A stretch of 41,521 bases of DNA from a virus. The stretch's first letter is position 1, and each line of letters starts with the position of its first letter. The stretch is taken from the IMG/VR virus record IMGVR_UViG_3300032326_001363, positions 1 through 41,521 of that record; one strand, written 5' to 3'. The position numbers and the translations under genes were made by a program. Shown piece by piece: positions 3,507-20,298 of the stretch. A model generated the notes under the pieces. That model was not told the DNA's origin and ran no database searches. It saw only the letters and a program-made list of their open reading frames with translations.

Positions 3507-3592
3507 TAATTAAAATTACTTCCCCTGCAGTAACGCCAGCAAAAGTTATAAAAGTCGATGACAAAACATTTATAATTAAAACTGGTGAATGA
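3503..3592 (+). CDS. Tiny coupled ORF, 29 aa
   Basis: Its ATG overlaps the stop of the upstream gene as ATGA, and its own TGA overlaps the ATG of the collagen-like gene, so three genes are chained. The product begins MIIKITSPAVTPAKVIKVDD and ends FIIKTGE, two short beta strands without Cys or membrane segment. The place corresponds to the small coupled genes after the other RGDT proteins (4731 and 12424), so it may be a shortened relative or a coupling peptide. Function unknown. Confidence 0.5.
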   Translation: MIIKITSPAVTPAKVIKVDDKTFIIKTGE

Positions 3593-4326
3593 TGAGTATT
3601 AGTCGTAAAGCAGAAATTCCAGGTAATCAAAAAAATAAACCTTCTTATGGCAAAGTTGTTGAAGAAGAAAAAACGGCTCCAGAGCCCGATATAGACTATA
3701 GAATACTTGTAGGGCCACAAGGACCTCAAGGACCAACTGGAAAGGCTGGAGAGGCTGGTCCAAAAGGCGATAAAGGGGATCCTGGAGAAAGGGGACCAAA
3801 GGGTGAAAGAGGACCTGCTGGAGAAACTTTATATATAAATAAAGAAGGTGTTGAAACACAACCAACAAAATCTGGTTGGGCATATTATGAAAATTTAAAC
3901 CAAGAGCAAATATTTTTAGGATTAGATAAAGGTGACGAGGGCTGGGTAGACCTATTAAATGATTCTAAAGGACAAACAATAGAAAAACATTTGCCAATAG
4001 GAAAAGTAAGTTTGTGGAATACAGAAACACAGAAGTTAAATTTTAAACAATTAGACATTGGCACAAGGGTAGAGATGGTTTATAATTTTGAAATAGAAAC
4101 ATTTGATAATAATGTTGAGGTTTGGCTAAGGACCTACTCTGTTCCCGCTGTAAATGTTTCACAGTTTGTTGCTAATCTAAAATATAAGTACACTTATGAC
4201 TTTTCAATTTCTCAAACACTGTATATTTTAAATGAAAAAATGAAACGAGCAAATGTTGTTCCACAAATAAGAACTGACCTAGATTCTGCCGTAAAGGTCA
4301 AATCCTTTACAGTCCATATTTCTTAG
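3589..4326 (+). CDS. Collagen-like tail fibre protein
   Basis: Residues about 42-80 form uninterrupted Gly-X-Y triplets (GPQGPQGPTGKAG through GPKGERGPAGE), with Pro often in X and Lys in Y, as in bacterial and phage collagen-like proteins that make trimeric triple helices. The remaining C-terminal 165 residues are a globular, aromatic domain of unknown fold that probably gives trimer registration or receptor binding. Two ATG codons (3589, 3592) compete; the first overlaps the stop of the 29-aa gene. The triplets contain sites that collagen prolyl and lysyl hydroxylases act on, notable because such oxygenases are encoded nearby. Confidence 0.8.
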   Translation: MMSISRKAEIPGNQKNKPSYGKVVEEEKTAPEPDIDYRILVGPQGPQGPTGKAGEAGPKGDKGDPGERGPKGERGPAGETLYINKEGVETQPTKSGWAYYENLNQEQIFLGLDKGDEGWVDLLNDSKGQTIEKHLPIGKVSLWNTETQKLNFKQLDIGTRVEMVYNFEIETFDNNVEVWLRTYSVPAVNVSQFVANLKYKYTYDFSISQTLYILNEKMKRANVVPQIRTDLDSAVKVKSFTVHIS

Positions 4327-4329
4327 TGG

Positions 4330-4335
4330 TATAAT
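4330..4335 (+). promoter_or_regulatory. Leaderless extended -10 promoter
   Basis: TGG-TATAAT, 6 nt before the ATG at 4342, no Shine-Dalgarno. Sequence identical to the promoter at 1483-1500 over 18 bp. Confidence 0.7.
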
Positions 4336-4341
4336 AAATAC

Positions 4342-4731
4342 ATGGCATTTCCAGGCACTTATAATTTTGACTATTATCGTGGTGATACATTTAGGTTTGT
4401 TGTATCCCCAAAAGATTCTACAGGAGCAGCATTTGCTCTTTCTGCTTATAAATCAGCAAGTCCAGCAAGAGATGCAATTTTTACAATAGCAGACGCTAGA
4501 GGCAGTACCAGAGAATTAGTCCTAACATCTAACGGATCTTCAGATTTAGGTGCATCTATCAACACTTCAGACAATACAATAACATGTACGATTACTCCTG
4601 ATGGAGGAAGAGATCTAGAGGGTGGCTCAACTTATTATTATGATCTTGAAATTTATAATGGTGCAGCACTTAGATATACTTTGTTAACTGGCACAATTAC
4701 AGTTCAAGATGATGTTACTGGGGCAGTTTAA
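4342..4731 (+). CDS. RGDT-type beta-sandwich virion protein, copy 2
   Basis: A leaderless gene of 129 codons. It begins MAFPGTYNFDYYRGDTFRFV, with the same RGDT strand as the proteins at 3120 and 12023, and ends in the strand RYTLLTGTITVQDD. The middle alternates strands and Ser/Thr/Gly-rich turns, typical of virion beta domains. It is likely an adaptor at the tail tip or fibre base; the exact role is inferred from repeated association with fibre genes. The stop overlaps the ATG of the next gene as TAATG. Confidence 0.65.
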   Translation: MAFPGTYNFDYYRGDTFRFVVSPKDSTGAAFALSAYKSASPARDAIFTIADARGSTRELVLTSNGSSDLGASINTSDNTITCTITPDGGRDLEGGSTYYYDLEIYNGAALRYTLLTGTITVQDDVTGAV

Positions 4732-5279
4732 TGCCAGAGGTAGTTGTCCTTGATCCCGAACTTTCTGTTTATGGCCCAGTAGAAGAAATTACTGTATCAG
4801 TTGACATTGGACAAACTGGCACAAGAGGAAGCAAACAATTTGTTGGAACTGGGTTGCCAAGTGGTTTAACAATTGCAGAAACTCCACTAGCAAACGATAT
4901 GTATTTAGATGTTTCTACTTCAGAACTTTATCAGTATATTGATAACGTCTGGACTATTGTTGGTAAGTTTGCTCCACTAACATATAACGTTAATGAAACT
5001 GTCACTTTTATTTCTGGAAGCGCAGATTTTACATATGACATTAATGATATGTTTGGAATAACAGAAACAACTGGAAGTTTTGTTGTACACCACAACATTA
5101 TTGGAACAGCAAATGTTATAGCCTCTGTGATAACCCAGCCAACACTAACTGCTACTGATCTAGACTTTACAATTAAGGCTAAGTCTTTGAGCGGATCAAC
5201 CTGGTCAAATTTATCAGGGGATTATGATGTAATGATTTCAATTAGCATAGGGGAAGACAACACATCTTCTGCTTCTTAG
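4731..5279 (+). CDS. Putative tail fibre or tip protein, 182 aa
   Basis: Coupled to the upstream RGDT gene by TAATG. It begins MPEVVVLDPELSVYGPVEEI and contains QTGTRGSKQFVGTGLPSG, then LANDMYLDVSTSELYQYIDNVW. That second stretch is a pattern seen in many phage fibres, where a short strand-turn unit reports on the chain exit (GDMYLDxxTGxLYxYxxxxW type). The C-terminal 110 residues are beta rich with Thr and Ser. It is likely a structural fibre subunit. No catalytic motif is visible. Confidence 0.55.
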   Translation: MPEVVVLDPELSVYGPVEEITVSVDIGQTGTRGSKQFVGTGLPSGLTIAETPLANDMYLDVSTSELYQYIDNVWTIVGKFAPLTYNVNETVTFISGSADFTYDINDMFGITETTGSFVVHHNIIGTANVIASVITQPTLTATDLDFTIKAKSLSGSTWSNLSGDYDVMISISIGEDNTSSAS

Positions 5280-5290
5280 AATAACTATGC

Positions 5291-5296
5291 TATAAT
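5291..5296 (+). promoter_or_regulatory. Extended -10 promoter, near leaderless
   Basis: TGC-TATAAT, 9 nt before the ATG at 5306, no Shine-Dalgarno. Confidence 0.65.
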
Positions 5297-5305
5297 ATTT
5301 AGACT

Positions 5306-6109
5306 ATGGCAGCCACAAATATAGGAAGTTCTAAGTATCCCCTAGCAAAAATTCCAGCAATGGCAGATCCAGCCGATATACAGGTTGCGCTTAAATACTA
5401 TCATTGGGGTCAAGAAACAGAGCCAGAAACAACTCCTGCGTCTGCTGGAATTTCAAGGTATTTAGATGAACTTGACGGAAGAATAGATACACTTGAAACA
5501 GACATTGATAATGTTGTTTTAACATCTGTGGTTGATGCTAGAGGTGATTTGATTGTAGGCACCGCAGATAATGCTGTTGATAATTTGACACGTGGTAGCG
5601 ATGGACATATTTTAACTGCAGACTCAACACAAGGCACATTTGGTCTTAAATGGGCTGCACCTACAGCAGCATCAACTTCAACACCTGGAGTTGTTCAATT
5701 GTCAGATTCAACATCAGAGACTTCATCAGTTAAAGCAGCAACACCAACTGCAGTCAAAGCAGTTCAAGATACTAAATCTGCGTTAGATTTTACTATTTTA
5801 GAAAAAACAGCAAATCACGCATTGGTTTTGTCAGATGCATATAAAATTATTGAAATGAATTTAACATCAACTGCAAATACAGTTACAATTCCACTTAATG
5901 CAACTCAAGCATTTGCAATTGGTTCACAAATTACAATTATTCAAACTGGAACTGGAGCAACAACAGTAGTAGTAACTGCAGGAGTTACACTAAATTGCAC
6001 ACCTCAAGTTTCTTCAAATGCAGCAAAATTAAGAACACAGTATTCATCTTGTACATTAATTAAACGAGCAACCAATACTTGGATTGCAATTGGCGATCTG
6101 AGTGCATAA
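5306..6109 (+). CDS. Tail fibre protein
   Basis: The N-terminal region has PADIQVALKYYHWGQ and a short coiled coil (YLDELDGRIDTLETDIDNV). The phage-fibre repeat STPGVVQLSDSTSETSS then leads into a Lys/Ala helix (residues about 128-155). The C-terminal 110 residues (from LEKTANHALVL to WIAIGDLSA) form a beta domain closely resembling the C-terminus of the large fibre at 15558, including the RxQ(W/Y)SSxTLxKRAxNxW signature. Shared C-termini suggest a trimerisation or receptor-tip domain used by both fibres. Followed by the Hint-like protein through a TAATG overlap. Confidence 0.75.
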   Translation: MAATNIGSSKYPLAKIPAMADPADIQVALKYYHWGQETEPETTPASAGISRYLDELDGRIDTLETDIDNVVLTSVVDARGDLIVGTADNAVDNLTRGSDGHILTADSTQGTFGLKWAAPTAASTSTPGVVQLSDSTSETSSVKAATPTAVKAVQDTKSALDFTILEKTANHALVLSDAYKIIEMNLTSTANTVTIPLNATQAFAIGSQITIIQTGTGATTVVVTAGVTLNCTPQVSSNAAKLRTQYSSCTLIKRATNTWIAIGDLSA

Positions 6110-7011
6110 TGCCATTACCACCAATATCTTCAGGTAGTGGAGGAATACAACCAGGAACTCCAACAATTGGAACTGCAACACAAGGTGATGGAACAGCAAC
6201 AGTTCCATTTACAGCACCAGCCTATTTAGGCAAACCAATTGGAACAACTTATACTGCAACTTCAACTCCATCAGATATAACAGGAACATCTTCAACTTCT
6301 CCAATAACTGTTAGTGGTTTGTCAAATGGAACAGCCTATACATTTAAAGTAAAACTAGGAAATGGTGTTGCTACATCTTTAGAATCTGCAGCAAGTAATT
6401 CTGTTACTCCAACAGCCCCAGCACCACCACCGTTCCCACCACCATTCCCACCACCATTCCCACCACCATTCGCCGTTGCCCCACCACCATTCCCACCACC
6501 ATTCGCACCACCATTTTTCCCAGGGTTCGTGGACTACTCAGAATATTCCATTGCAAGCAGTACTGGAGTTATAACCATTAATGGAAGAAAAGACGCTAAA
6601 GATATTGTAGTGGGAGACGTTTTGGTTGCTATGGATTTAGATACCAACAATGTTTCTGATTGGACAACTTGGAGTAGAGAAGATTTATTGTTAAATGAAA
6701 CTAACTTAAGAGAAACAGAGGTTGTTTCTATTACCTCAAGGCCTATCAGTACACTTTATATAATTAACGGAGATGCATATTCGGGAACGCATTATATTTT
6801 AACTAAAAAAGATGATGTTGTTAAATTTATACAAACATCAGAAATTGATGATTCATATTTTGTATACTCTTTCTCTGAGTTACAGTTTGTTCCAATAGAA
6901 GCGTTCGACATTATAGAATATGAAGATACGGTTTATTCAATCAATTGCGAACCATATGATAATTTCTTTACAGAAAATATGTTGGTTTTTGATGTTAGGG
7001 ATAATATTTAA
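6109..7011 (+). CDS. Fn3-polyPro-Hint-like virion protein, copy 1
   Basis: Start at 6109 (TAATG with the fibre gene). Residues about 14-100 are a fibronectin type III domain. Residues 106-140 carry six PPPF units with an AVA break, ending PPFFPGF. Residues 147-300 resemble a Hint (hedgehog/intein) domain: SIASSTGVIT followed by GRKDAKDIVVGD as block A, GTHYILTKKDD with His228 as block B, and VYSINCEPYDNFFTENMLVFD as blocks F/G. The usual first Cys is Ser147, the YHNFF His is Asp284, and the terminal His-Asn is Phe-Asp, so self-processing may be altered or lost. A paralogue lies at 17533. Probably a surface fibre or tip component; Hint assignment is by eye. Confidence 0.7.
   Translation: MPLPPISSGSGGIQPGTPTIGTATQGDGTATVPFTAPAYLGKPIGTTYTATSTPSDITGTSSTSPITVSGLSNGTAYTFKVKLGNGVATSLESAASNSVTPTAPAPPPFPPPFPPPFPPPFAVAPPPFPPPFAPPFFPGFVDYSEYSIASSTGVITINGRKDAKDIVVGDVLVAMDLDTNNVSDWTTWSREDLLLNETNLRETEVVSITSRPISTLYIINGDAYSGTHYILTKKDDVVKFIQTSEIDDSYFVYSFSELQFVPIEAFDIIEYEDTVYSINCEPYDNFFTENMLVFDVRDNI
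6421..6528 (+). repeat. PPPF-coding minisatellite
   Basis: Tandem 12-base units of the form CCACCACCATTC encode Pro-Pro-Pro-Phe. The units differ by single bases and are interrupted once by GCCGTTGCC. Repeats like this can change copy number by slippage. Confidence 0.8.
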
Positions 7012-7592
7012 TTAAAGTTTTTTACACGCCAAAATGCTGGCGATGTATATCTGTTGTTATTTAATACTTTTGTTACCCCATGAGTATAATGTATATCTCC
7101 AGGAAAAAATATTGCAGAACCAGCCTTGGGCTTTATGGTTATATCCTGGTTAGTAAAGTATATTTCTCCACCATCATAATTGTCGTTTATATACATTAGG
7201 GATGCCACATCATTTTCAGGATAAGAATTTGGATTACCATCCTGCTCCTGTTTGTCTGCATGAGGAGGCTGATCATCCCCAGGTCTCCAAAGAACTATTG
7301 ATGGTGAATTTTCTTGTAAAACAAAGTTAAATCTTTTTTCTATTTCTATTTTTAATTTTTTTTGATATTCTAAAAGTTTAAGAAATAATGTCTTATTACT
7401 ATTTTTAAATAACTCTGAACTATGAACCCTATTGTCCCAGTTGTCATCAGGTATGGATAAAAAATTTTCTATTGATTTAGAGTAAAGGTAAAATTTATCT
7501 AAGTCATCTGGACTTATAAAATTTTCTAAAACAATGATATTATCAACAGAGTCCCCAAAATAGCCAGGTTGTACCTTATACATATTTTCCAT
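7008..7592 (-). CDS. 2OG-Fe(II) oxygenase (prolyl 4-hydroxylase type), Arg class
   Basis: Shows the jelly-roll signature of the family: His111-x-Asp113 (PPHADKQ), the strand LMYINDNYDGGEIYF, distal His171 (HYTHGV) and Arg181 (RYTSPAFW) ten residues later for 2-oxoglutarate. All three Fe ligands are present, so it should be active. The enzyme would use O2 and 2-oxoglutarate to hydroxylate a protein or small-molecule side chain in the host cytoplasm. It is the only oxygenase on the minus strand, ends within the Hint-like gene's stop, and starts leaderless 6 nt from a TATACT box. Closest in the window to the 196-aa enzyme at 9697. Substrate unknown. Confidence 0.85.
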   Translation of the reverse strand: MENMYKVQPGYFGDSVDNIIVLENFISPDDLDKFYLYSKSIENFLSIPDDNWDNRVHSSELFKNSNKTLFLKLLEYQKKLKIEIEKRFNFVLQENSPSIVLWRPGDDQPPHADKQEQDGNPNSYPENDVASLMYINDNYDGGEIYFTNQDITIKPKAGSAIFFPGDIHYTHGVTKVLNNNRYTSPAFWRVKNFN

Positions 7593-7598
7593 ATATGT

Positions 7599-7606
7599 AG
7601 TATACT
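7599..7606. promoter_or_regulatory. Shared divergent -10 palindrome
   Basis: AGTATACT is its own reverse complement and gives a TATACT box to both strands. Leftward, the ATG at 7592 follows after 6 nt (leaderless). Rightward, the start is near 7613 and the mRNA carries an AAAGGAG ribosome site before 7633. Confidence 0.55.
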
Positions 7607-7632
7607 ATATATTGACCAAAAAAGGAGATTAA

Positions 7633-8295
7633 ATGTTATCTAACTTTATAGAAACAGCCACTATAGAAAATCCTGCGCCTGCTGTATTCGTTTATAAAAA
7701 TGCGCTTAATAAAGACTTAAATCTTGTTCAGCGACTTGAAGATGTTATTGAAAAACATGGCGATAATTTTTTTAAATGGAGCGAAGCACAGGTTGGTGAT
7801 TATGAAACAAGAAAAGATTATAGAGATTGCGTAGACTTTAAGGTAAGAAAAAATGATTTTGTAAATAATCCAAGAGCAACTATGTCAGATTTAAGAAAAA
7901 TATACTTTGACATAGATGAACGACTACAGGAATGTGTAAAACATTATTCTTCACTTTTTAATTTAAATTTAGAGTATCAAGAAGCAGTTAATTTTGTTAG
8001 ATATGGAAAAGATCAACACTTTCAGGTTCATTCAGATCATGGTTTTAGTTATGTATGTACTGTTTCTACAGTCATGTATTTAAATGACAACTATACTGGA
8101 GGAGAATTGTTTTTCCCATACATAAACTATACTTATACTCCAGAAGAGGGAGATATTGTTTTGTTCCCATCAAACTTTTTATATTCTCATGCTGCTTTGC
8201 CTGTAAAAGAAGGAATAAAATATTCTGCAGTAACAATGTTTGACTATAATGATAGGGTACACGGAGCAAACTCTCCACTAAGGCAAAAACAATAA
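7633..8295 (+). CDS. 2OG-Fe(II) oxygenase, Lys class, copy A
   Basis: An oxygenase of 220 aa with His133-x-Asp135 (HFQVHSDHG), the core strand MYLNDNYTGGELFFP, distal His186 (YSHAALPV) and Lys196 in place of Arg for 2-oxoglutarate binding, as in collagen prolyl 4-hydroxylases. The upstream motif RDCVDFK (residues 64-70) is shared with the enzymes at 18887 (as RNCSDFK) and 19618, and marks a subfamily restricted to the Lys-class members here. A strong AAAGGAG site precedes the ATG. Directly followed, with no gap, by the DUF6065-like gene, as copy B at 19618 is, so the pair is a conserved unit. Substrate unknown; nearby collagen-like and poly-Pro proteins are candidates. Confidence 0.85.
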   Translation: MLSNFIETATIENPAPAVFVYKNALNKDLNLVQRLEDVIEKHGDNFFKWSEAQVGDYETRKDYRDCVDFKVRKNDFVNNPRATMSDLRKIYFDIDERLQECVKHYSSLFNLNLEYQEAVNFVRYGKDQHFQVHSDHGFSYVCTVSTVMYLNDNYTGGELFFPYINYTYTPEEGDIVLFPSNFLYSHAALPVKEGIKYSAVTMFDYNDRVHGANSPLRQKQ

Positions 8296-9015
8296 ATGTA
8301 TGAAATCAATGCATATGAAATAAATCCAGGTTCAGGTGCAAGAATAGAACAACTTTCTTTAAAAAGAGACTGGATGGATAAAACATTTGATCAACATGCA
8401 TACAGGTGTTTTCCTTTATCGTTAACAAATCAAATGGGATGGGGATTTTCATTTCCCAAAGATATTTCTGTTGTTTGGGATGGAAACGACTCTTCTGAAG
8501 GAAATCACATAACGGTTTTAAAAGGTAAAGAATTTGTTGACACTAACAGAGGAACTGCAACACTAATTTTTAATATAGGTTGGTTTTTTGAAACAAATCC
8601 AGAAACTAGTTTATTGTTTTTTGGTCCACCAAATTTAGACATTGATGGCGCAGTTCCGTTAACAAACTTAATTAGTTCTAGTTTTTGGCAAAAACCTATA
8701 CCAGTATCTTGGAAAATTACAAGGCCAAATACTGTTATTACGTTTAAAGCAAACTCTCCAATTATTTCTGTTTTGCCAATATCTTTAACAAATTTGCAAA
8801 ATTCTACAATTACTTTAAATAATAATCCATATAATATTAATGAATACCATAAAAAAGCAACAGACTATGGAAATGTAATATTAGAAAATAATAAAATTCC
8901 AAAGTTTTCTGATTTTTATCGAAGCGCTACTGATCAATTTGGCAATTCTGTTGGATCACACGAAGTAAAAAAAATAAAGTTGCATACTAAAGACATAAGG
9001 AAAAAAAATGAATAA
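8296..9015 (+). CDS. DUF6065-like protein, copy A
   Basis: The ATG touches the stop of the oxygenase. The protein (239 aa) shares most of its length with the one at 20291: LKRDWMD near residue 22, CFPLSLTNQMGWG, ISVVWDG, FGPPNLDIDGAVPL and FYRSATDQ near the end. The pattern recalls the DUF6065 family (recalled name, unverified), a beta-rich possibly cupin-like protein of unknown function. It shares its central PPNL/VPNL stretch with the more distant 243-aa protein at 21006. Constant adjacency to a Lys-class oxygenase suggests a joint pathway, perhaps as substrate-binding or partner protein. No catalytic residues can be assigned. Confidence 0.7.
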   Translation: MYEINAYEINPGSGARIEQLSLKRDWMDKTFDQHAYRCFPLSLTNQMGWGFSFPKDISVVWDGNDSSEGNHITVLKGKEFVDTNRGTATLIFNIGWFFETNPETSLLFFGPPNLDIDGAVPLTNLISSSFWQKPIPVSWKITRPNTVITFKANSPIISVLPISLTNLQNSTITLNNNPYNINEYHKKATDYGNVILENNKIPKFSDFYRSATDQFGNSVGSHEVKKIKLHTKDIRKKNE

Positions 9016-9529
9016 AAACGGAATAGAGTTTTACTATAATGTTTTGAATAATTCAGACTTATTAATTAAAGAAATTAATAAGTATGAGTGGACAAGGCCA
9101 CTAAATGTAAAAACAGAAGATAGATCTAATTCAGTCATATACTTTCAAGATAAAGAGTTGCAAAAAGAAATTTTTAAAATTATAGATGAGGCGCTGAATA
9201 GTTCTTTAAGTTCGTATCGTGATTTATATTTTCTTCCAGAACTAACATATTTTACAATAGAGGCATTGAAATACGAGCCTGGAGAAAAGTATGTAATGCA
9301 CTATGATGATGGCTCAAAGCATGTTTCTAATAGAGTTACTAGTTGCGTTATATACTTGAATGATGATTATGAGGGTGGTGAGATAGAATTTTGTAACTTT
9401 GACATTAAAGTTAAGCCAGTAAAAAATTCTATGGTATTATTTCCATCAAACTACCCATATATGCACATAGCCCATCAGGTTCATTCTGGAACAAGATATG
9501 CAATTAATATATTTTTGGAGTATAAGTAA
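9008..9529 (+). CDS. 2OG-Fe(II) oxygenase, Arg class, short
   Basis: The shortest of the six at 173 aa, but the catalytic set is complete: His98-x-Asp100 (YVMHYDDG), the strand VIYLNDDYEGGEIEF, distal His153 and Arg163 (GTRYAINIF). Its start overlaps the previous stop by 8 nt with an AAGG ribosome site. Lacking most of the N-terminal helical region of the longer paralogues, it may accept a different substrate or act as a minimal hydroxylase. Coupled by TAATG to a 52-aa gene, then a further oxygenase. Confidence 0.85.
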   Translation: MNKNGIEFYYNVLNNSDLLIKEINKYEWTRPLNVKTEDRSNSVIYFQDKELQKEIFKIIDEALNSSLSSYRDLYFLPELTYFTIEALKYEPGEKYVMHYDDGSKHVSNRVTSCVIYLNDDYEGGEIEFCNFDIKVKPVKNSMVLFPSNYPYMHIAHQVHSGTRYAINIFLEYK

Positions 9530-9687
9530 TGGAAATTATAGAAGATATTGCTAAAATTATGCAGTCAAAGGGGTATTGCGAAAAGTCATCTTATCAATGG
9601 ATATGCTATGTTTTATCTTCAATGGTTGATGCATCAAACTTTGACAAAGTAAAAGAAATAGCAGAGCAATCAGAGTTACCTAATTAA
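9529..9687 (+). CDS. Hypothetical protein, 52 aa
   Basis: The ATG overlaps the oxygenase stop as TAATG. The product (MEIIEDIAKIMQSKGYCEKS onward) looks all-helical, with WICYVLSSMVDA as a hydrophobic helix core and an acidic C-terminal helix. No family recognised. Placed between two oxygenase genes in one operon, it could be an accessory factor, but nothing in the sequence shows this. The next gene has its own TAAGGAG site 10 nt downstream. Confidence 0.65.
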   Translation: MEIIEDIAKIMQSKGYCEKSSYQWICYVLSSMVDASNFDKVKEIAEQSELPN

Positions 9688-9696
9688 GGAGAAAAA

Positions 9697-10287
9697 ATGA
9701 AAATAGGATCTACAAAAAATATTGTTATAAAAGAAAATTTTGTTTCAAAGGAAGATTTAGACATTGTATTATCATCAATAGACGATACAATTTCTTGGGG
9801 TTCTAATTCAATGGCTGGAATACCAGACAAAGTAACAAGCAATCTTGCTTTTGAAAAGCCAGAGGCCCATGCCATACTAAAAAAAGCAATTGATAGAGTA
9901 CAGCAAGAGATAGAACTTTATTTTGGAAGACCTCTTGAAACCAATTCTGCTGGAATAAGAAGATGGGACGCAGGAGAGTTTCAACCACTACATGCAGATG
10001 GAGAAGATCCAGAAGGACATCCAAATGAAGCGTTTATAGTTGACTATGGGGCTGTTATCTATTTAAACGATGACTACGAAGGTGGAGAGATCTACTTCCC
10101 AGATCATAACTTAGACTTTAAACCTAGTGCTGGCACATTGGTATTTTTCCCATCAAACACAATGTATATACACGGTGTTCGTGAGATAAAAAAGGGCACA
10201 AGATATACCACACCATCTTTTTGGATTCCAACTAAATACAAAATATTTGAAAATGAAATTAAAAATAAATATGTTAATAAAAATTAA
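9697..10287 (+). CDS. 2OG-Fe(II) oxygenase, Arg class
   Basis: 196 aa with His99-x-Asp101 (QPLHADGED), VIYLNDDYEGGEIYFP, distal His159 (YIHGVREIKKG) and Arg169 (GTRYTTPSFW). All Fe and 2-oxoglutarate ligands are intact. It resembles the minus-strand enzyme at 7008 in length, in the HAD ligand context and in the RYT(T/S)P(S/A)FW ending, so these two are probably duplicates. An excellent TAAGGAG ribosome site precedes the ATG. Reaction by family: 2-oxoglutarate-dependent hydroxylation; substrate unknown. Confidence 0.87.
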   Translation: MKIGSTKNIVIKENFVSKEDLDIVLSSIDDTISWGSNSMAGIPDKVTSNLAFEKPEAHAILKKAIDRVQQEIELYFGRPLETNSAGIRRWDAGEFQPLHADGEDPEGHPNEAFIVDYGAVIYLNDDYEGGEIYFPDHNLDFKPSAGTLVFFPSNTMYIHGVREIKKGTRYTTPSFWIPTKYKIFENEIKNKYVNKN

Positions 10288-10337
10288 ATATTATTTTTAT
10301 AAATTTAAAAAAATATTTAAAAAAGGGGATAAAAAAT

Positions 10338-11342
10338 ATGAAAAATACATATACTAACTCTATAAAAGAAACTATAAATAACTTAGGTTTAATTGGAAAT
10401 GATGTAGTTGATCATGAAAATGTTAAACATTTATTTTTAAATGATTGGATTATTACAAATAAAAGAAAACCAGGCTTGTATCCAAATGGTTTGCCATGGA
10501 CAGGACATTATAAACAAACAGAATTTTTATTGGACCAGTCTAATTCATATATTATAAATAATGTAGGCTTTAGAGGAAAAGATTTTAATGAAAACAATGA
10601 ACTTGTTTTTGCTGGCTGTTCTTTTACATTTGGGTTAGGGTTGCCAGAAAAAGAAATATGGGGCAGTCAAGTGGCAAGGGCCTTAAATGTAAAGTATTCA
10701 AATATAAGTCAACCAGGAGACTCTGTTGTTGCAATTATAAATAATATATATAAATATTTTGAAGAATATGGTCATCCAAAAATTCTTTTATGTTTGTTTC
10801 CAGATTTTTATAGATTTATGGTTCCAGTAAATACTGAAACATTAATAACAAAAAATACTTATTTTCCAGTACATCCAGAGAGTATGTTGTCTTCAACTCA
10901 CGTAATTTATCAAGAATCAGAAAAATATTCTAAAAAACCACATTATTCTGAGGATGTTTTTTCTCCAGATTTACCATATTTTTACTCATATCAATATATT
11001 AAAATGTTAGAGCAGTATTGTAAACAAGCAAAAATTTTATTTTTATGGTCAACGTGGAGTGGTTTTTTGTATGACTTAATAACACAACAAGAAAATGTAT
11101 CAAATAATTTTGTTTATTTAAAGTCTAATAGATGGTACAAAAGTGATGATGGACTTGATGTATATTTAGACGAATGTAATAAACACGAACATTTAAGACA
11201 TTTGTATCCAAAAAATTTTGATACATCAACAGACATAGAAGATGAAAAGTATTATTCAAAAAAGGCAAGGCATAGTGGAGTTCATAGACATATGCATTGG
11301 GCAGAAGGATTTTTAGAGATAATACAAGATATTAAAAATTAA
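10338..11342 (+). CDS. SGNH/GDSL-type hydrolase
   Basis: Residues 91-99 (VFAGCSFTFG) carry the block I motif with Ser95 as likely nucleophile. A Gly-containing segment (ISQPGDSVVAII, about 125-136) fits block II, and near the C-terminus the His cluster HSGVHRHMHW (312-321) provides candidates for the catalytic His of block V. SGNH enzymes remove acyl groups from sugars, peptidoglycan or proteins. No signal peptide, so it would act in the cytoplasm or on the virion. An AAGGGGA site precedes the ATG. It closes the module A oxygenase operon and converges, with overlapping stops, on the endolysin. A role in tailoring a glycan or fibre is inferred from context. Confidence 0.7.
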   Translation: MKNTYTNSIKETINNLGLIGNDVVDHENVKHLFLNDWIITNKRKPGLYPNGLPWTGHYKQTEFLLDQSNSYIINNVGFRGKDFNENNELVFAGCSFTFGLGLPEKEIWGSQVARALNVKYSNISQPGDSVVAIINNIYKYFEEYGHPKILLCLFPDFYRFMVPVNTETLITKNTYFPVHPESMLSSTHVIYQESEKYSKKPHYSEDVFSPDLPYFYSYQYIKMLEQYCKQAKILFLWSTWSGFLYDLITQQENVSNNFVYLKSNRWYKSDDGLDVYLDECNKHEHLRHLYPKNFDTSTDIEDEKYYSKKARHSGVHRHMHWAEGFLEIIQDIKN

Positions 11343-11905
11343 TATCTTTCCATCCACTCTTTAGTTTTCCAGGTAATGCCTTTCCAGGCAGACCAATCTT
11401 CACCACCATTACTCATATGATAAGCGATTTCTGCATTTCTAACTGGATCAAACAGATCTTCGTTAGACTTTAGATTAAACTTGCTTCTTCTTTCTTCGCC
11501 CAGTCCTCCAAGCATATTGATTTGAAATAGGCCATAAGAATTATCTCCAGTCTGTCTATTAGGATTCCAAGAGTTAGGAGTGCCCATAGATTCTTTCATT
11601 ACCGTTGCCCAAGCAACCTTTAGTGAATATCCTTCAAAGCCTACTTGCTTTAATATTTTAATTAGTTCGTTTTTTTCAAGGGGTGTTCCATATTTGTATT
11701 TTTTGTTAATTTTATTATTTTCTTCTTTAGAAACCAAAAAAACCTCTTTCGAGGCGTTTTCCTGCTCCTGAGCCTGTTCTATACTCAAATTATTTTTGTC
11801 ACTTATTCGTGTTTCAGCATTAGCAACGTTTGACAATGTCGTTACTAAAGTCAGTATGCCGAGTATACTAATGACCTCTTTGTTTCTTTCGATAAATTTA
11901 ATCAT
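11339..11905 (-). CDS. Secreted lysozyme/transglycosylase-like endolysin
   Basis: Start placed at 11905 because AAGGAGG lies just upstream on the minus strand; an in-frame TTG farther out lacks such a site. Residues 1-30 form a signal peptide with a hydrophobic core (ISILGILTLVTTLS) and likely cleavage after ANA. After a charged linker comes a lysozyme-fold domain: WATVMKES with Glu105 as catalytic acid, NSYGLFQINM (122-131) and DPVRNAEIAYHM, the SLT/goose-type pattern that cuts the MurNAc-GlcNAc bond. A signal-bearing endolysin can reach the wall through the host Sec system, with a holin only timing lysis. It faces its neighbour on the plus strand with overlapping stops. Confidence 0.85.
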   Translation of the reverse strand: MIKFIERNKEVISILGILTLVTTLSNVANAETRISDKNNLSIEQAQEQENASKEVFLVSKEENNKINKKYKYGTPLEKNELIKILKQVGFEGYSLKVAWATVMKESMGTPNSWNPNRQTGDNSYGLFQINMLGGLGEERRSKFNLKSNEDLFDPVRNAEIAYHMSNGGEDWSAWKGITWKTKEWMERY

Positions 11906-11926
11906 AGTTTCCTCCTTAGAAAACAA

Positions 11927-11984: not shown

Positions 11985-12010
11985 CTTTTTACATATTTTT
12001 GTAATTATGT

Positions 12011-12016
12011 TATAAT
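12011..12016 (+). promoter_or_regulatory. Leaderless extended -10 promoter
   Basis: TGT-TATAAT, 6 nt before the ATG at 12023, with no ribosome site. Confidence 0.7.
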
Positions 12017-12022
12017 TCTTAT

Positions 12023-12424: not shown

Positions 12425-12651
12425 TGGCTTCTGTTGCAATATTTGATAAACAAACAACAATATTAAAATCAATTGATCAACACACATTTCCTAAAGTTTC
12501 TATTGAAGAAAAGATTGACAGAGGGATAACAATAAATGAATTTTTACCATTTAGAGTAAGAATAACTGATATAGATATTATAGCCTTTGACGCTAATAAT
12601 GCACCGCCAATTCCACTACAAATAATTGGTTTAAGCAACTATATTTTATAA
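12424..12651 (+). CDS. Small coupled virion-associated protein, 75 aa
   Basis: TAATG overlap with the RGDT gene. The product begins MASVAIFDKQTTILKSID and ends with FRVRITDIDIIAFDANNAPP and then IIGLSNYIL; the LSNYIL ending is reminiscent of small conserved phage proteins of unknown role (recalled). The first strands (VAIFDKQTTI) resemble the start of the gene at 4731 (VVVLDPELSVY), supporting the view that each RGDT protein is followed by a related partner. Function unknown. Confidence 0.6.
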   Translation: MASVAIFDKQTTILKSIDQHTFPKVSIEEKIDRGITINEFLPFRVRITDIDIIAFDANNAPPIPLQIIGLSNYIL

Positions 12652-12679
12652 AATTATAAAATTGTTAAAATAATTATGT

Positions 12680-12685
12680 TATAAT
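12680..12685 (+). promoter_or_regulatory. Leaderless extended -10 promoter
   Basis: TGT-TATAAT, 6 nt before the ATG at 12692. Together with that at 12011 it shares the upstream element AATTATG. Confidence 0.7.
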
Positions 12686-12691
12686 CTAGTT

Positions 12692-13138
12692 ATGGCAAAA
12701 ATATCATTAGCATCAGTCAAAGCCTTGTTTCAAACAGGAGATCGTCCTACTCAACAAGATTATGAAGATTTAATTGACTCAACATCAGCCCAAGCCACAG
12801 ACTTAGGAACTACTGGTAATAATGAATCAACAATCAACGGCATTGAAAGTGCTACAGTAATTGATAATTTTGACGCAACAGTATGGAGAATGGTTAAATA
12901 CCTAGTCTCTATTAAAAAGACTTCTGGAGGCGATAATAAATATTACGCCACAGAGATTACCATATTAATTGACGGTACAAATGTTAACGTTAGTGAATAT
13001 GGAACTATAGACAACGATGGGAATATTGGCACCATAAGCGTCTCCCGCGCTGGAAATACAGTATCCTTAACGGTTACTCCAGTAGTCGGTACAACGCCTA
13101 TAACCGTACGTTATGCACGTATAGGATTAAAGGCATAA
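12692..13138 (+). CDS. Small tail fibre protein, 148 aa
   Basis: The N-terminus KALFQTGDRPTQQDYEDLIDS is typical of phage fibre adaptor regions. The remaining 100 residues are a beta domain with TVIDNFDATVWRMVKYLVSIKK near residue 54. The same domain, with DTFSATTYSAAKYVIQMKK, ends the large fibre at 13152, so the two share a C-terminal module (receptor tip or trimerisation, inferred). Followed after 13 nt by the next fibre gene with an AAAGGAG site. Confidence 0.7.
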   Translation: MAKISLASVKALFQTGDRPTQQDYEDLIDSTSAQATDLGTTGNNESTINGIESATVIDNFDATVWRMVKYLVSIKKTSGGDNKYYATEITILIDGTNVNVSEYGTIDNDGNIGTISVSRAGNTVSLTVTPVVGTTPITVRYARIGLKA

Positions 13139-13151
13139 AAGGAGATAAAAA

Positions 13152-15038: not shown

Positions 15039-15050
15039 AAAGGAGATTAA

Positions 15051-15509
15051 ATGGCAACTGTAAACAGAGATTTTAAGGTAAAACATGGCTTAGTCGTAGC
15101 CGATGGCGGTACTTTCGGATCAACGGTTACAGTTGCCACTCCAACTCAAAATACTCACGCAGCAACAAAATTATATGTTGATACTATTGCGGGTAGCGCA
15201 GGAGTAACTGTTAGCGGAACAGCACCAACGTCTCCATCAAATGGAAATCTTTGGTTTGACACATTAACAGAAAGAATTCATGTTTATTATGGATCTCAAT
15301 GGGTAGCAATTGCAACTCTTGAAGATGCAGAAATGCTACAAGACCACATTCACGATACCGCAATTGATGGATCTGGTCTTATTGTAAGTACATTTGTTTC
15401 TGGAGGTGCTTATAATGAACCAGGTGTTCTAGTAAGCGCAGGAGACTATAGCACTTCATCATGGGAAAATACCTATGATGGAGGAGTTGCAACAGATAAC
15501 TTTAATTAA
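15051..15509 (+). CDS. Fibre-associated protein sharing N-terminus, 152 aa
   Basis: Begins MATVNRDFKVKHGLVVADGG, nearly the same as the large fibre before it, then ATKLYVDTIAG and SGTAPTSPSNGNLWFDTLTE followed by HVYYGSQWVAI, a strand-turn-Trp unit common near phage fibre ends. The shared N-terminus suggests that it competes with or caps the same attachment site, giving short and long fibres. AAAGGAG ribosome site. A 9-bp inverted repeat overlaps its stop codon. Confidence 0.7.
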   Translation: MATVNRDFKVKHGLVVADGGTFGSTVTVATPTQNTHAATKLYVDTIAGSAGVTVSGTAPTSPSNGNLWFDTLTERIHVYYGSQWVAIATLEDAEMLQDHIHDTAIDGSGLIVSTFVSGGAYNEPGVLVSAGDYSTSSWENTYDGGVATDNFN

Positions 15510-15523
15510 TTATCTGTTATAAT
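15491..15523 (+). promoter_or_regulatory. Inverted repeat abutting extended -10
   Basis: AACAGATAA (15491-15499) and TTATCTGTT (15510-15518) form a perfect 9-bp stem spanning the stop codon. The right arm runs into TGT-TATAAT (-10 15518-15523), the promoter for the fibre at 15558, which has an AGGAGG site. Confidence 0.6.
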
Positions 15524-15557
15524 AAAAATAAGAAATTTTCTGTAGGAGGAAAATAAT

Positions 15558-17501
15558 ATGGCAACAAGAATGCAGCAACGCAGAGGTACTGCAGCACAAT
15601 GGACATCAGCAAACCCAATACTAAATGCTGGTGAAATGGGATGGGAGTCAGACACTAATAAGTTTAAGATCGGTGATGGCACTAACCACTGGGCAGATAT
15701 TGACTACTTTATTGACCAATCCTCTACAGTAAACCCATCATTTGGTTCAAGCATTACATTTGAAGGTGCTACCGCCAATAATTTTGAAACAACTCTTGCC
15801 GTAACAGATCCTACAGCAGACCGTACAATTACATTTCCAGATGCAACAGGCACAGTTGTTTTGTCCGATGGTAGTGGAAACGTTACCGTTTCAGGAGATT
15901 TAACAGTAAGTGGTACAACCACTACTATTAACAGCACAACAATTAATGCTACAACAGGAATTGTTTTTGAAGGTACTACAGCAAACGATTATGAAACCAC
16001 TTTAACAGTAACAGATCCTACAGCCGATAGAACTATTACATTTCCAAACGTAAGCGGAACTGTTGTTACAACAGGAAACCTTAGTGCAACTGGTGCAACA
16101 TCAACAGAATTAGGATATCTTGCTGGTGTTACTTCAGCAATTCAAACACAATTAGACAATAAGCAAGCAGTTGTTGCAGATGTATCAAATACTGAAATTA
16201 GTTATCTTAATGGTGTAACCTCAGCAATTCAAACTCAGTTAGATGCTAAAGCAGCACTAGCAGGTCCTACATTTACTGGAACAGTAACTCTTCCAAGTAC
16301 CACATCAATTGGAGATCTATCTTCAACAGAAATAGGGTACCTAGAGGGAGTGTCTGCTGGAATTCAAGGACAGATTGATGGAAAAGCAGGAACAGGTCAT
16401 ACACATACTCTTTCAACAGGTGCAACAGATGTCACCGCAACAGCATCAGAAGTTAATTTAATAGATGGATCTATTGCTGGAACAATTGTAGATAGCAAGG
16501 CAGTAATTTATGGTCCAGCAGGCCAAGTAAATGCTACAACTTTACAAATTGCTGGCACTTCTATTACTTCTACAGCAGCAGAACTCAACTTAGTAGATGG
16601 ATCATCAGCAGGAACTATTGCAAATAGCAAAGCAGTTATTTATGGCTCTGCAGGCGAAGTAAACGCCACAACTTTGCAGATTGCTGGCACTTCTATTACT
16701 TCTACAGCAGCAGAACTTAACATTCTTGATGGTGTAACCACATCAACTACAGAACTTAACTACGTTGATGGGGTAACTTCAGCCATTCAAACACAGTTAG
16801 ACGCTAAGGCTTCTCTTTCAGGAGCAACATTTACAGGCGCAGTATCTGGAACAGACTTAACGCTTTCTGGAAACTTAACAATTAATGGAACTACAACAAA
16901 CCTTAACTCAACTAACCTTGTTATTGAAGACAAAAACATTGTTCTTGGAGATACAGGAACTCCTACTGATACAACTGCAGATGGCGGAGGTATTACACTT
17001 AAAGGCGCAACAGACAAAACCTTTAACTGGGTAGATTCTACAGATTCTTGGACATCTTCCGAGCATATCAACCTTGCTTCAGGAAAAGATCTTAAAGTAA
17101 ACGGAACCGCAGTTATTAGTTCTACTGCTGGTGGATTTATTTTTACTGACGGGACACAAACCAAAGAAGGTGTTCCATCACGGACATCAATTATTCAGAA
17201 GACAGCAGAATACACTCTTTCATCACTAACAGAGAGAGACTCATTAATTGAAGTTTCACATACAGGTGGAACTGCAGTTAAGGTTTTAATCCCAACAGAT
17301 GCTACACTTAACTATCCAATCGGAACATCTATTGACGTTCTTCGAACAAATACTGGAGAAGTGACAATTGAAGCAGTAACGCCAGGAACAACAACAGTAA
17401 ATGCAACTCCTGGATTAAAACTTCGTGCACAATGGTCATCAGTAACATTATTTAAGAGAGCAGCAAACCTTTGGGTTTTAATGGGAGATTTAAAAGCATA
17501 A
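15558..17501 (+). CDS. Large repetitive tail fibre with Mtd-like N-terminus, 647 aa
   Basis: Residues 1-50 read QQRRGTAAQWTSANPILNAG and then TNKFKIGDGTNHW, the short N-terminal domain found on many phage receptor-binding fibres (major tropism determinant N-terminal type). The shaft contains ADRTITFPDATGTV and TELNYVDGVTSAIQTQLDAK repeats related to those in the fibre at 13152, plus a tandem 44-residue duplication. The C-terminal domain (residues about 545-647, from QKTAEYTLSSL to VLMGDLKA) is shared with the fibre at 5306. Its own promoter and AGGAGG site point to strong expression. Confidence 0.85.
   Translation: MATRMQQRRGTAAQWTSANPILNAGEMGWESDTNKFKIGDGTNHWADIDYFIDQSSTVNPSFGSSITFEGATANNFETTLAVTDPTADRTITFPDATGTVVLSDGSGNVTVSGDLTVSGTTTTINSTTINATTGIVFEGTTANDYETTLTVTDPTADRTITFPNVSGTVVTTGNLSATGATSTELGYLAGVTSAIQTQLDNKQAVVADVSNTEISYLNGVTSAIQTQLDAKAALAGPTFTGTVTLPSTTSIGDLSSTEIGYLEGVSAGIQGQIDGKAGTGHTHTLSTGATDVTATASEVNLIDGSIAGTIVDSKAVIYGPAGQVNATTLQIAGTSITSTAAELNLVDGSSAGTIANSKAVIYGSAGEVNATTLQIAGTSITSTAAELNILDGVTTSTTELNYVDGVTSAIQTQLDAKASLSGATFTGAVSGTDLTLSGNLTINGTTTNLNSTNLVIEDKNIVLGDTGTPTDTTADGGGITLKGATDKTFNWVDSTDSWTSSEHINLASGKDLKVNGTAVISSTAGGFIFTDGTQTKEGVPSRTSIIQKTAEYTLSSLTERDSLIEVSHTGGTAVKVLIPTDATLNYPIGTSIDVLRTNTGEVTIEAVTPGTTTVNATPGLKLRAQWSSVTLFKRAANLWVLMGDLKA
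16548..16717 (+). repeat. 132-bp tandem duplication inside fibre gene
   Basis: An exact string of about 37 bp beginning ATTGCTGGCACTTC occurs at 16548 and again at 16680, 132 bp (44 codons) apart. The stretches in between (GTIxxSKAVIYGxAGxVNATTLQ) also match. A related single unit occurs in the other fibre gene near 13640-13760. Confidence 0.7.
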
Positions 17502-17509
17502 TAGTTTGA

Positions 17510-17515
17510 TATAAT
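17510..17515 (+). promoter_or_regulatory. Extended -10 promoter
   Basis: TGA-TATAAT; predicted start near 17522, short leader with a GAGGAG ribosome site before the ATG at 17533. Confidence 0.65.
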
Positions 17516-17532
17516 AGAAAAGAGGAGTAAAA

Positions 17533-18828
17533 ATGGCAGTTAGTAAAAAAAGAGGTATCAAGTCTTCAGCACAAGACAACTTTTTGCAACCAGATAATGT
17601 TACTTCCTTAAGTGGTACAGATGTAGGAACATCTCGTCCTTATCTTGCTACTGCTAATACTACTTCAGCAGCATCTGCTTCAGGAACTGGTGGAGCAGTA
17701 AGCCTTACTTGGACATTGCCAGCGGGATCTCCAGCAGCAACTGCTTATATCATTACAACAACCCCCTCAACTTACGAAGTAAATACTGGCTCTTCCACTC
17801 CTTCTTATACTTTTCAGGGATTAGCATCAAATACTTCATACACATTTACAGTAAAAGGAACAAACGCTGCAGGAACTGCAAGCGGAACAACTTCTTCTTC
17901 AGTAACTGCAACAACAGTTCCACAAGCGCCTCAAGGTGCGGTCGCCAGTGCTGGTGTTAACCAAAACACAATCAGTTGGACAATTGGTGCCACTGGTGGA
18001 AAGGCTTTATCTAAGCATAACGTTACTGGTTCTGACGGAACTTCTTCTGGAGATTTAGCATCATCAGCAACATCAGCAACTATTGCTGATACAGCAGGAA
18101 CTTCACAGACTTACACTGTTACTGCAACAAATGCTAATGGAGCATCATTAGGAGCAACAACTTCTAGCGTTACTACACTTTCACCATTCTTCCCATTCTT
18201 CCCATTTTTCCCATTCTTCCCATTTTTCCCATTCTTCCCAGGTTTTGCACCACCACCGTTTCCACCTCCATTCCCACCACCGTTTCCACCTCCATTCCCA
18301 CCACCATTCGCACCACCATTTTTCCCAGGGTTTGGATTCTCAGAGTACTCTATTGCCAGCAATACAGGCATCATGACTACCAATGGCAGAAAAGAAGCCA
18401 AAGACATAGTTGTAGGAGATGTTTTAATTGCAATGGAACTTCCAGAACAAGCCTCAGCACATAACACTGACTGGTTAAACTGGACAGCAGAAGACTTAAT
18501 CCTAAATGAAACTAATTTAAGAGAAACTACAGTTTATGCAGTATCATCAAGACAAGTAGATACAATATATCTTCTTAACGGCGATGCATATTCTAAAACA
18601 CATTATGTTTTAACTAAAAAAGATAATGTTTCAAAATTCTTAAGAATTGATTTAATTGATGAGACATATATGGTATATTCATATGAAGAGTTAGGGTTTG
18701 TCAATATTGATTCATTAGATGTTCTAAATTATGAAGAAACAGTATATTCGATTAACTGTGAGCCATACGACAACTTCTTTACAGAAAATATGTTAGTATA
18801 TGACACAAGAGATCAAAGTATTGAATAA
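17533..18828 (+). CDS. Fn3-polyPro/Phe-Hint-like virion protein, copy 2
   Basis: Two fibronectin type III domains (residues about 40-125 and 130-215) are followed by six Pro-Phe-Phe units (218-238) and five PPPF units (240-259), ending PPFFPGF. The Hint-like domain is residues 273-431: SIASNTGIMT/GRKEAKDIVVGD (block A), KTHYVLTKKDN with His357 (block B) and VYSINCEPYDNFFTENMLVYD (blocks F/G). As in copy 1, Ser replaces the usual Cys and Tyr-Asp replaces the final His-Asn. The Hint part is about as conserved between the copies as the fibre linkers, while the Fn3 number differs. Likely surface exposed; processing unproven. Confidence 0.7.
   Translation: MAVSKKRGIKSSAQDNFLQPDNVTSLSGTDVGTSRPYLATANTTSAASASGTGGAVSLTWTLPAGSPAATAYIITTTPSTYEVNTGSSTPSYTFQGLASNTSYTFTVKGTNAAGTASGTTSSSVTATTVPQAPQGAVASAGVNQNTISWTIGATGGKALSKHNVTGSDGTSSGDLASSATSATIADTAGTSQTYTVTATNANGASLGATTSSVTTLSPFFPFFPFFPFFPFFPFFPGFAPPPFPPPFPPPFPPPFPPPFAPPFFPGFGFSEYSIASNTGIMTTNGRKEAKDIVVGDVLIAMELPEQASAHNTDWLNWTAEDLILNETNLRETTVYAVSSRQVDTIYLLNGDAYSKTHYVLTKKDNVSKFLRIDLIDETYMVYSYEELGFVNIDSLDVLNYEETVYSINCEPYDNFFTENMLVYDTRDQSIE
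18183..18328 (+). repeat. FFP and PPPF coding minisatellites
   Basis: Six 9-base units (CCATTCTTC type) encode Pro-Phe-Phe, followed by five 12-base units encoding Pro-Pro-Pro-Phe. Synonymous changes (CCG TTT, CCT CCA) recur in alternation, suggesting duplication of a 24-base double unit. Confidence 0.8.
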
Positions 18829-18835
18829 AAAGCGC

Positions 18836-18881
18836 AGTCTCCTTTAAATAATTCTTATGCTATAATTAAATAAAGGAGACT
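18836..18881 (+). promoter_or_regulatory. Promoter inside an RBS-sequestering inverted repeat
   Basis: AGTCTCCTTTA (18836-18846) is an exact 11-bp complement of TAAAGGAGACT (18871-18881), which contains the ribosome site of the next gene. Between them lies TGC-TATAAT (18858-18866). Transcripts from this promoter (start about 18873) lack the left arm; read-through RNA has both arms and should hide the ribosome site. Confidence 0.7.
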
Positions 18882-18886
18882 CGCTA

Positions 18887-19621
18887 ATGATTGAAATAAA
18901 TGAATCACAAAATCCTTGGTTTACAAAAGATAGGTCAGAATCTGCATCTTTTAGAATGCCAGACAAAACTTTCAATAATATTAAAGTAAGCAATCCAGGA
19001 TTAGGTTTAAATATATACAATAATGCAATTTCAAAAGAAAATTGTGAAAAATATTTAAGTATATTAGAAAATAATTTAAATGGACAAACAAGGTATAAGT
19101 GGAATGAAGCAAAAGTTACAAACTCAGATCAACCAATAAAATATGCTAGAAACTGCTCTGATTTTAAATATAATCTTTATTCTCTGGGAGCAAGAGATGA
19201 GCAAAATGCTGAATTAATTGATATGTATGAAGAAATTTACAATACTTTAAAATTATGTGTTGATGACTATGCTCGCTATTGGGGAATTAATGTGGTCTAT
19301 TATGAAGCATTTAATTTTGTAAAATATGAAGGTGTAGGACAGCAATTTAGAATTCATGCAGATCACGGTCCAGCATATAATACAACAGTTTCTGTTGTAA
19401 TTTATTTAAATGATGATTATGAAGGCGGAGAATTATTTTTTCCAAGGCTAGACAATTTAGTTTATAAACCAAAGTTTGGTGATATAGCAATTTTTCCATC
19501 TAATTATATTTATGAGCATGCGTCAATGGACATGGTTAATGGAACAAAATATTGTATTGTTATTATGACAGATATTAATGAATTGGGACATAAGTATACT
19601 TACACAGAAAGGCAACAATGA
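18887..19621 (+). CDS. 2OG-Fe(II) oxygenase, Lys class, copy B1
   Basis: At 244 aa the longest of the set. Ligands His157-x-Asp159 (RIHADHG), core VIYLNDDYEGGELFFP, distal His211 (YEHASMDM) and Lys221 (GTKYCIVIM). The subfamily motif appears as RNCSDFK (88-94). The N-terminus has an extra 35 residues absent from the enzyme at 7633. Expression should depend on the promoter at 18861 because of the sequestering repeat. Its stop overlaps the next oxygenase start (ATGA). Hydroxylase chemistry by family; substrate unknown. Confidence 0.86.
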   Translation: MIEINESQNPWFTKDRSESASFRMPDKTFNNIKVSNPGLGLNIYNNAISKENCEKYLSILENNLNGQTRYKWNEAKVTNSDQPIKYARNCSDFKYNLYSLGARDEQNAELIDMYEEIYNTLKLCVDDYARYWGINVVYYEAFNFVKYEGVGQQFRIHADHGPAYNTTVSVVIYLNDDYEGGELFFPRLDNLVYKPKFGDIAIFPSNYIYEHASMDMVNGTKYCIVIMTDINELGHKYTYTERQQ

Positions 19622-20298
19622 TTAATTTTGAACCAAATGTTGTTGAAAATCCAACTTGGGATAGTAAAGAATTACTTGCAGATGGAATAGCAGTTTATAG
19701 AAATGTATTTAAAAAAGACATGAAAATAATTAGTAGACTAGAAAATAGTCTAACAGGCAAAAATCCAAATTATTTTTGGAGAGAGGCTTTAGTTGGATAT
19801 GCCCAAAAAATTCCAGAATATAGAGACTGTGTTGATTTTAAATATAGAAAAGAAAATTTACTGAATGATAAAAGCGTTCAATCAGTTTTGCTGCAAGAAG
19901 TCTGGCAGGATTGTTATGACTTACAACTTCCAGCAGTTAAAGACTACTCTCATTTTTTTCGTGTTGGAGAACTAAGATACTGGGAATCATTTAATTTTAT
20001 AAAATATGGTCCAGGACAACATTTTCAAGAGCATCATGATCAGGGTTCTACATATAACTGTGTAGTTTCTTTAGTAGGATATTTAAATGATGATTACGAA
20101 GGTGGAGAGTTAGATTTTAGACTACAAGGAATAAAAGTTAAACCACAGGCAGGTGATTTATATATTTTTCCATCAAACTATATGTATCCTCATACAGCAA
20201 TGCCAGTGATATCTGGAACAAAATATTCGTTAGTAACAATGCTTGATTATAGCGCAAAATATCATAGGCCAGACCTTCATGAAGAAACAAATGACTAA
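19618..20298 (+). CDS. 2OG-Fe(II) oxygenase, Lys class, copy B2
   Basis: 226 aa with His139-His140-Asp141 (QEHHDQG), GYLNDDYEGGELDF, distal His192 (YPHTAMPV) and Lys202 (GTKYSLVTM). RDCVDFK at 69-75 and the surrounding residues make it the closest relative of the enzyme at 7633, and both are followed directly by a DUF6065-like gene. Started by ATGA coupling to B1. The whole Fe/2-oxoglutarate set is intact. Confidence 0.86.
   Translation: MINFEPNVVENPTWDSKELLADGIAVYRNVFKKDMKIISRLENSLTGKNPNYFWREALVGYAQKIPEYRDCVDFKYRKENLLNDKSVQSVLLQEVWQDCYDLQLPAVKDYSHFFRVGELRYWESFNFIKYGPGQHFQEHHDQGSTYNCVVSLVGYLNDDYEGGELDFRLQGIKVKPQAGDLYIFPSNYMYPHTAMPVISGTKYSLVTMLDYSAKYHRPDLHEETND

Follow-up and report, generated by a model that had tools for sequence, protein, structure and literature searches.

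Viral prolyl hydroxylases are already known: the prolyl 4-hydroxylase (P4H) of PBCV-1 (Eriksson et al. 1999, as cited in PMC7019647 and PMC9301287) is the precedent, a single enzyme whose role is given as unknown (PMC7019647), and the use that viruses make of prolyl hydroxylase has been called cryptic (PMC9301287). The wider family of 2-oxoglutarate- and Fe(II)-dependent (2OG-Fe(II)) oxygenases is common in aquatic phages, where a role in host metabolism is usually guessed; for the cyanophage enzymes, of which one cyanophage carries 24, the role is described as not investigated (PMC9602691). Here, we analyze IMGVR_UViG_3300032326_001363, a virus fragment of 41.5 kb (41,521 nucleotides, called the window below; 35% G+C), in which six such oxygenases lie beside two predicted tail adhesins with stalks of Pro and Phe. 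As the portal protein of the record shares 47% identity with its counterpart in Streptomyces phage Annadreamy, the record likely comes from an actinobacteriophage.

Among relatives of these adhesins, which come from uncultured aquatic phages, FFP/PPPF stalks are accompanied by the oxygenases and a DUF6065 protein, whereas versions of the adhesin with GAF, TPF or SPF stalks lack both; the subset of enzymes present varies with the repeat type. We put at about 0.72 the probability that the oxygenases and DUF6065 make up a cassette dedicated to modifying the Pro/Phe stalk, with prolyl hydroxylation as the predicted reaction. The putative cassette occupies two blocks of a fibre region (~3.1-21.7 kb) that also holds a collagen-like protein and several fibre proteins. 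Block 1 runs from adhesin 1 (6109-7011, plus strand) through ox1 (7008-7592, minus strand, convergent), ox2 (7633-8295), a DUF6065 protein (8296-9015), ox3 (9008-9529) and ox4 (9697-10287), the last four on the plus strand. Block 2, all on the plus strand, comprises adhesin 2 (17533-18828), ox5 (18887-19621), ox6 (19618-20298), a second DUF6065 protein (20291-21016) and a phrog_7084 protein (20988-21737), with genes overlapping by a few bases from ox5 onward. A first-pass annotation of this DNA had taken the two adhesins for poly-Pro fibres. Their PPPF/FFP repeats are indeed there, but each protein is built from an fn3 domain, a stalk and a C-terminal Hint/intein-like domain: in adhesin 1, fn3 (PF00041, E 9e-4), a PPPF stalk (~6397-6534) and the tip (PF14890, E 6e-3), and in adhesin 2, fn3 (PF00041, E 7e-9), a stalk of (FFP)n then (PPPF)n (~18181-18333) and a Hint-like tip (PF14890, E 8.9e-5). 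Such a stalk is about 85% Phe plus Pro and 47% Phe.

The same annotation had recognized six intact 2OG-Fe(II) oxygenases, and this holds for every one of them. All match PF13640 with 38.6-62.2 bits against a curated cut-off of 27 (E 5.8e-10, 6.3e-13, 9.6e-17, 2.2e-9, 3.4e-12 and 2.6e-15 for ox1 to ox6), and, searched in all six frames, the record yields these six PF13640 matches and no others, all free of internal stops. HxD and the distal His are kept throughout, followed by Arg in ox1 (HAD...H...R), ox3 (HYD...H...R) and ox4 (HAD...H...R) and by Lys in ox2 (HSD...H...K), ox5 (HAD...H...K) and ox6 (HHD...H...K). All four catalytic residues are kept in 632 of 645 distinct related enzymes; in ox6, H139, D141, H192 and K202 are invariant among 37 sequences. 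The fold comparison was made with ox6, one of the six enzymes. Its AlphaFold2 model (pLDDT 92) has prolyl hydroxylases as top PDB matches (E 1.6e-11, TM score ~0.6-0.67), the nearest solved structures being P. putida P4H (P4H-EF-Tu), PHD2, PBCV-1 P4H (5c5t) and an algal P4H with (Ser-Pro)5 (3gze). By sequence (phmmer), the PDB neighbours of the oxygenases are weak and mixed: LH3 and P4H at E 7e-4 to 3e-3, prolyl 3-hydroxylase 1 (P3H1) at 1.1e-5, and also PiuC; those of ox4 are P3H1, a PKHD hydroxylase and P4H. The PHROG labels 'DNA endonuclease V' and 'ferrochelatase' disagree with the Pfam and fold matches, and we judged them to be mislabels.

Hundreds of relatives of adhesin 2 are present in IMG/VR; 322 stretches were confirmed and 79 loci kept. 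The N-terminal fn3 domain is shared, the stalk varies (FFP/PPPF, GAF, GFTPF, PFSPF, FAPF), and the protein ends in either a Hint domain or a short tail rich in Cys. With fn3 constant and the stalk variable, it is therefore testable what the oxygenases follow. As truncated contigs might create zeroes, we limited one count to the fully sequenced stretch between the stalk gene and the RNR gene downstream of it. Of the 24 FFP/PPPF loci left after dereplication, 22 have oxygenases in this stretch (2-8 each), compared with 0 of 46 GAF, GFTPF or PFSPF loci (Fisher 3e-16); in the two exceptions, L220 and L299, oxygenases lie in another part of the locus. Among dereplicated loci that retain 13 kb or more of context, the mean number of oxygenases per 10 kb is 3.47 at the 35 with FFP/PPPF stalks versus 0.39 at the 18 others (p 1e-8), and three or more are found at 31/35 versus 0/18. 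The fn3 adhesins of the DNA-pattern samples give 3.79 per 10 kb with PPPF, 3.84 with FFPP and 0.06 with GAF. In eight long records, 48 of the 57 PF13640 matches lie within 12 kb of a stalk gene, where 17.5 are expected. Beyond the adhesin family, PPPF pattern matches fall mainly in short open reading frames (ORFs) of doubtful reality, without oxygenases.

The link also holds across lineages. On an RNR tree of 63 taxa, the stalk class switches 9 times or more, and all 7 independent pairs agree with oxygenase presence (p 0.016). Two near-isogenic relatives, G013 and G036 (portal 99%, RNR 99% and major capsid protein 98% identical to the record), carry a homologous adhesin at the same locus with a PFSPF/PFAPF stalk, and lack precisely ox5, ox6 and DUF6065; the gap is flanked by the fibre gene at 15558, the phrog_7084 gene and RNR. 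G015 and G016 (portal 96%), which cover the region from 3120 to RNR, have a GFTPF stalk and lack both oxygenase blocks. Conversely, ox5, ox6 and DUF6065 are all present in G019 (portal 94%, FFPFFP stalk), and G017 (portal 95%, FFPPFF stalk) has six oxygenase matches. The same stalk-oxygenase link appears on a scaffold unrelated to the fn3 adhesin: PASTA-domain proteins of other phages, with FFPPYFPP stalks and in one case PPPF, have oxygenases too, and often DUF6065. PASTA-like proteins with FFPPYFPP or PPPF stalks, oxygenases and usually DUF6065 were seen at L455, L470, L477, L330 and L430. As a separate observation, G016 encodes a divergent 2OG oxygenase (HVD...H...R; G016:8138-8932, L259) at the expected place of block 1, close to a protein containing CYQT and NPYNC repeats.

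Both DUF6065 proteins (PF19541, E 3.6e-36 in block 1 and 1.6e-25 in block 2) were passed over in the first-pass annotation, and they belong to the set. DUF6065 is found at 33/35 FFP/PPPF loci versus 0/18 others (p 3e-12), and in the DNA-pattern samples with PPPF in 10/14, FFPP in 22/35 and GAF in 0/55; it follows these stalks no less strictly than the oxygenases do. DUF6065 is a previously unrecognised third component of the stalk and oxygenase set. Foldseek gives the AlphaFold2 model of the block 1 protein (pLDDT 80.8) a weak dUTPase beta-clip likeness (E 3.7e-4, TM 0.38 by query length), too weak a match for us to call it a dUTPase, and a search of the DUF6065 profile against PDB sequences found nothing. 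The phrog_7084 protein (E 1.2e-34), which adjoins DUF6065, is present at 32/35 FFP/PPPF loci and 15/18 others, as a different subtype per stalk class (~45-65% versus 29-34% identity).

The enzyme set also varies with the repeat. In FFP stalks the prolines stand in FPP, PPF or FPF contexts, and in the other stalks in TPF, APF or SPF. Directly downstream of the stalk gene there are exactly 2 oxygenases with FFPF-only stalks (4/4), 4 with PPPF and 6-9 with mixed FFPF and FPPF; stalks that have none downstream mostly share their locus with a second stalk that does. Orthologs of ox5 occur at 46/47 FFPF-containing stalk loci with enzymes and at 0/13 non-FFPF loci, while the nearest relative of a PPPF-linked enzyme is itself PPPF-linked in 36/38 cases. 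Thus, ox5 and ox6 accompany FFPF units and ox1-ox4 accompany PPPF, ox1 doing so in a 108 kb relative as well. As lineage and gene position may contribute to these patterns, we propose only tentatively, and at rather less than even odds, a combinatorial hydroxylation code: each oxygenase would serve one proline context or step (ox5 and ox6 F-P-F, the others P-P), the enzyme set would be readable from the stalk sequence, and DUF6065 would act as scaffold, or clamp the substrate, in a modification complex dedicated to Phe/Pro stalks.

If the oxygenases modify proteins, the collagen-like fibre (3589-4326, plus strand) would be another candidate, and the first-pass annotation suggested that they hydroxylate it and so stabilise its triple helix. 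Such a fibre is present: residues 42-79 match PF01391 (E 4.6e-8), a genuine but short segment that lies ~3 kb from ox1, and collagen hydroxylases belong to the same superfamily as these enzymes. Collagen genes, however, show no association with FFP stalks (6/35 FFP versus 4/18 non-FFP loci, p 0.72), and the non-FFP loci that bear collagen have 0 oxygenases. G015 and G016 keep the collagen gene, with a collagen segment that is longer, without oxygenase blocks; in G016, PF13640 matches nothing and only one divergent 2OG oxygenase is present. Since the enzymes show no association with the collagen-like substrate, and collagen persists without them, we reject a collagen hydroxylation system as highly improbable. 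The co-occurrence check in metagenomic phages that the earlier annotation had proposed therefore separates its two candidates, coming out positive for PPPF/FFP genes (22/24 versus 0/46) and negative for collagen genes. Its broader idea, that the phage hydroxylates its own adhesins, survives as a link to a predicted adhesin with a Pro/Phe stalk, through the tree test, the near-isogenic pair and the PASTA recurrence, and fails for the collagen-like fibre.

Enzymes of the 2OG oxygenase superfamily hydroxylate many residue types, and with Phe making up 47% of the stalk the target could be Phe/Tyr side chains rather than Pro; we think this improbable, as Phe-rich GAF stalks lack the enzymes, the enzyme sets track Pro context and the nearest folds are prolyl hydroxylases. 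Alternatively, stalk and oxygenases might travel together as one host-range module, with the oxygenase target elsewhere (a host surface glycan, another virion protein or host metabolism). Near-isogenic phages do differ in cassettes as whole blocks, and the usual view of cyanophage oxygenases is that they alter host metabolism (PMC9602691). Yet the enzyme subset follows the stalk repeat type and the link recurs on PASTA scaffolds; moreover, the Hint tip and fn3 are common to both classes, so that the stalk is the differing feature. We therefore regard such hitch-hiking as unlikely. Several points do weigh against a cassette dedicated to the stalk. Its hydroxylation is inferred, with no hydroxylated residue observed and all genomes uncultured, and the linkage could reflect whole-module exchange and not enzyme-substrate pairing. 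In addition, some non-FFP phages keep 1-3 oxygenases elsewhere, PF13640 missed the divergent oxygenase of G016, FFPP proteins of other architectures (L414, L416, L469, L479) are without oxygenases, and PF13640-like enzymes of cyanophages sit in other gene contexts.

Collectively, our data point to stalk prolines as the candidate long-missing target of these common phage enzymes. In the model that we favor, a stalk-modifying cassette, the oxygenases would act late in infection, using Fe(II), O2 and 2-oxoglutarate to hydroxylate stalk prolines that follow Phe or Pro (FPF, FPP, PPF); ox5 and ox6 would serve FFPF units, and ox1-ox4 PPPF units. More speculatively, hydroxylation might render a stalk of ~85% Phe plus Pro soluble and rigid, allowing display of the tip, and DUF6065 might hold the substrate or the enzymes.

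The tips themselves vary. Although the Pfam PF14890 match of the window tips is below cut-off, a Hint profile search of tips against PDB recovers the bacterial intein-like 2lwy (E 6.5e-6) and the gp41-1 intein (6qaz). In an alignment of 23 tips, those of the window (6535-7008; ~18349-18825) have Ser in place of Cys1 and Phe/Tyr-Asp in place of the final His-Asn, and self-splicing is therefore unlikely there. Both Cys1 and His-Asn, the latter followed by a single Lys, are retained in some relatives (L064 and L059 among them), so some tips may self-cleave. On the same stalk, L070, L072, L031, L033 and others have short Cys-rich, knottin-like tails in place of Hint, making this an exchangeable adhesin tip. 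GAFGAFGAF stalks (L118, L074, L023, L334-L407), a silk-like alternative, carry the same fn3 and Hint domains and are almost without oxygenases.

Elsewhere in the window, 15558-17501 encodes a fibre protein with an Mtd_N domain (major tropism determinant N-terminal domain). The product of 10338-11342, without a Pfam match and rare among relatives (11 loci), contains GCSFTFG and is SGNH-hydrolase-like by eye. A lysozyme-like SLT_3 protein (11339-11926, minus strand) lies within the fibre region and is kept in both stalk classes, and 1934-2710 (minus strand), with an SPDIDG motif and no Pfam match, is DHH-phosphatase-like by eye.

Searches by tblastn of 50,697 isolated-phage records gave no match to DUF6065, nor to the stalk adhesin or a PASTA-FFP protein, for both of which the low-complexity filter limits the search; thus, no isolate is at hand. 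Bacterial genomes with FFPPFFPP gave 17 matches, of which 14 are in-frame ORFs; the majority seem to be frames open by chance. Those that encode an FFP protein of the fn3 or PASTA type (L277, L281, L288, L289) lie in GTDB species genomes, metagenome-assembled genomes labelled Verrucomicrobiales, Gammaproteobacteria and Chitinophagaceae. These are probably phage contigs that were binned into the assemblies as contamination, and three of the four have oxygenases.

These results give one large class of phage oxygenases a concrete candidate substrate, the adhesin's own Pro/Phe stalk. If this is correct, a bacteriophage would use a dedicated set of enzymes to build a structural polymer that is hydroxylated post-translationally, DUF6065 would be assigned to a process, and biotechnology would gain small soluble enzymes with defined proline contexts. 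We found neither a report of stalk-linked phage hydroxylases, including stalk-matched multi-enzyme sets, nor a paper on DUF6065 in the open-access literature, an absence that is no proof.

Parts of the system resemble known ones. The adhesin tip matches the Hint profile, 2lwy and 6qaz, as bacterial intein-like (BIL)/Hint domains do; the window tips differ from these in Cys1 and His-Asn, which some relatives keep. Cyanophage 2OG-Fe(II) oxygenases (PHROG 61) belong to the same PHROG and Pfam family, with relatives 25-33% identical, but stand in another gene context with no known stalk link. Algal and plant P4Hs, which act on proline-rich cell-wall proteins, share the prolyl hydroxylase fold (3gze with (Ser-Pro)5) and, as we infer here, extended Pro-rich repeats as substrate; here the setting is a phage and the proposed substrate FFP/PPPF, and we identified no hydroxyproline glycosyltransferase in the window. 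The P4H of PBCV-1 (5c5t) is one of the solved structures closest to ox6, but that is one enzyme of a eukaryotic algal virus, whereas here 2-9 enzymes, together with DUF6065, are matched to the stalk of one phage adhesin.

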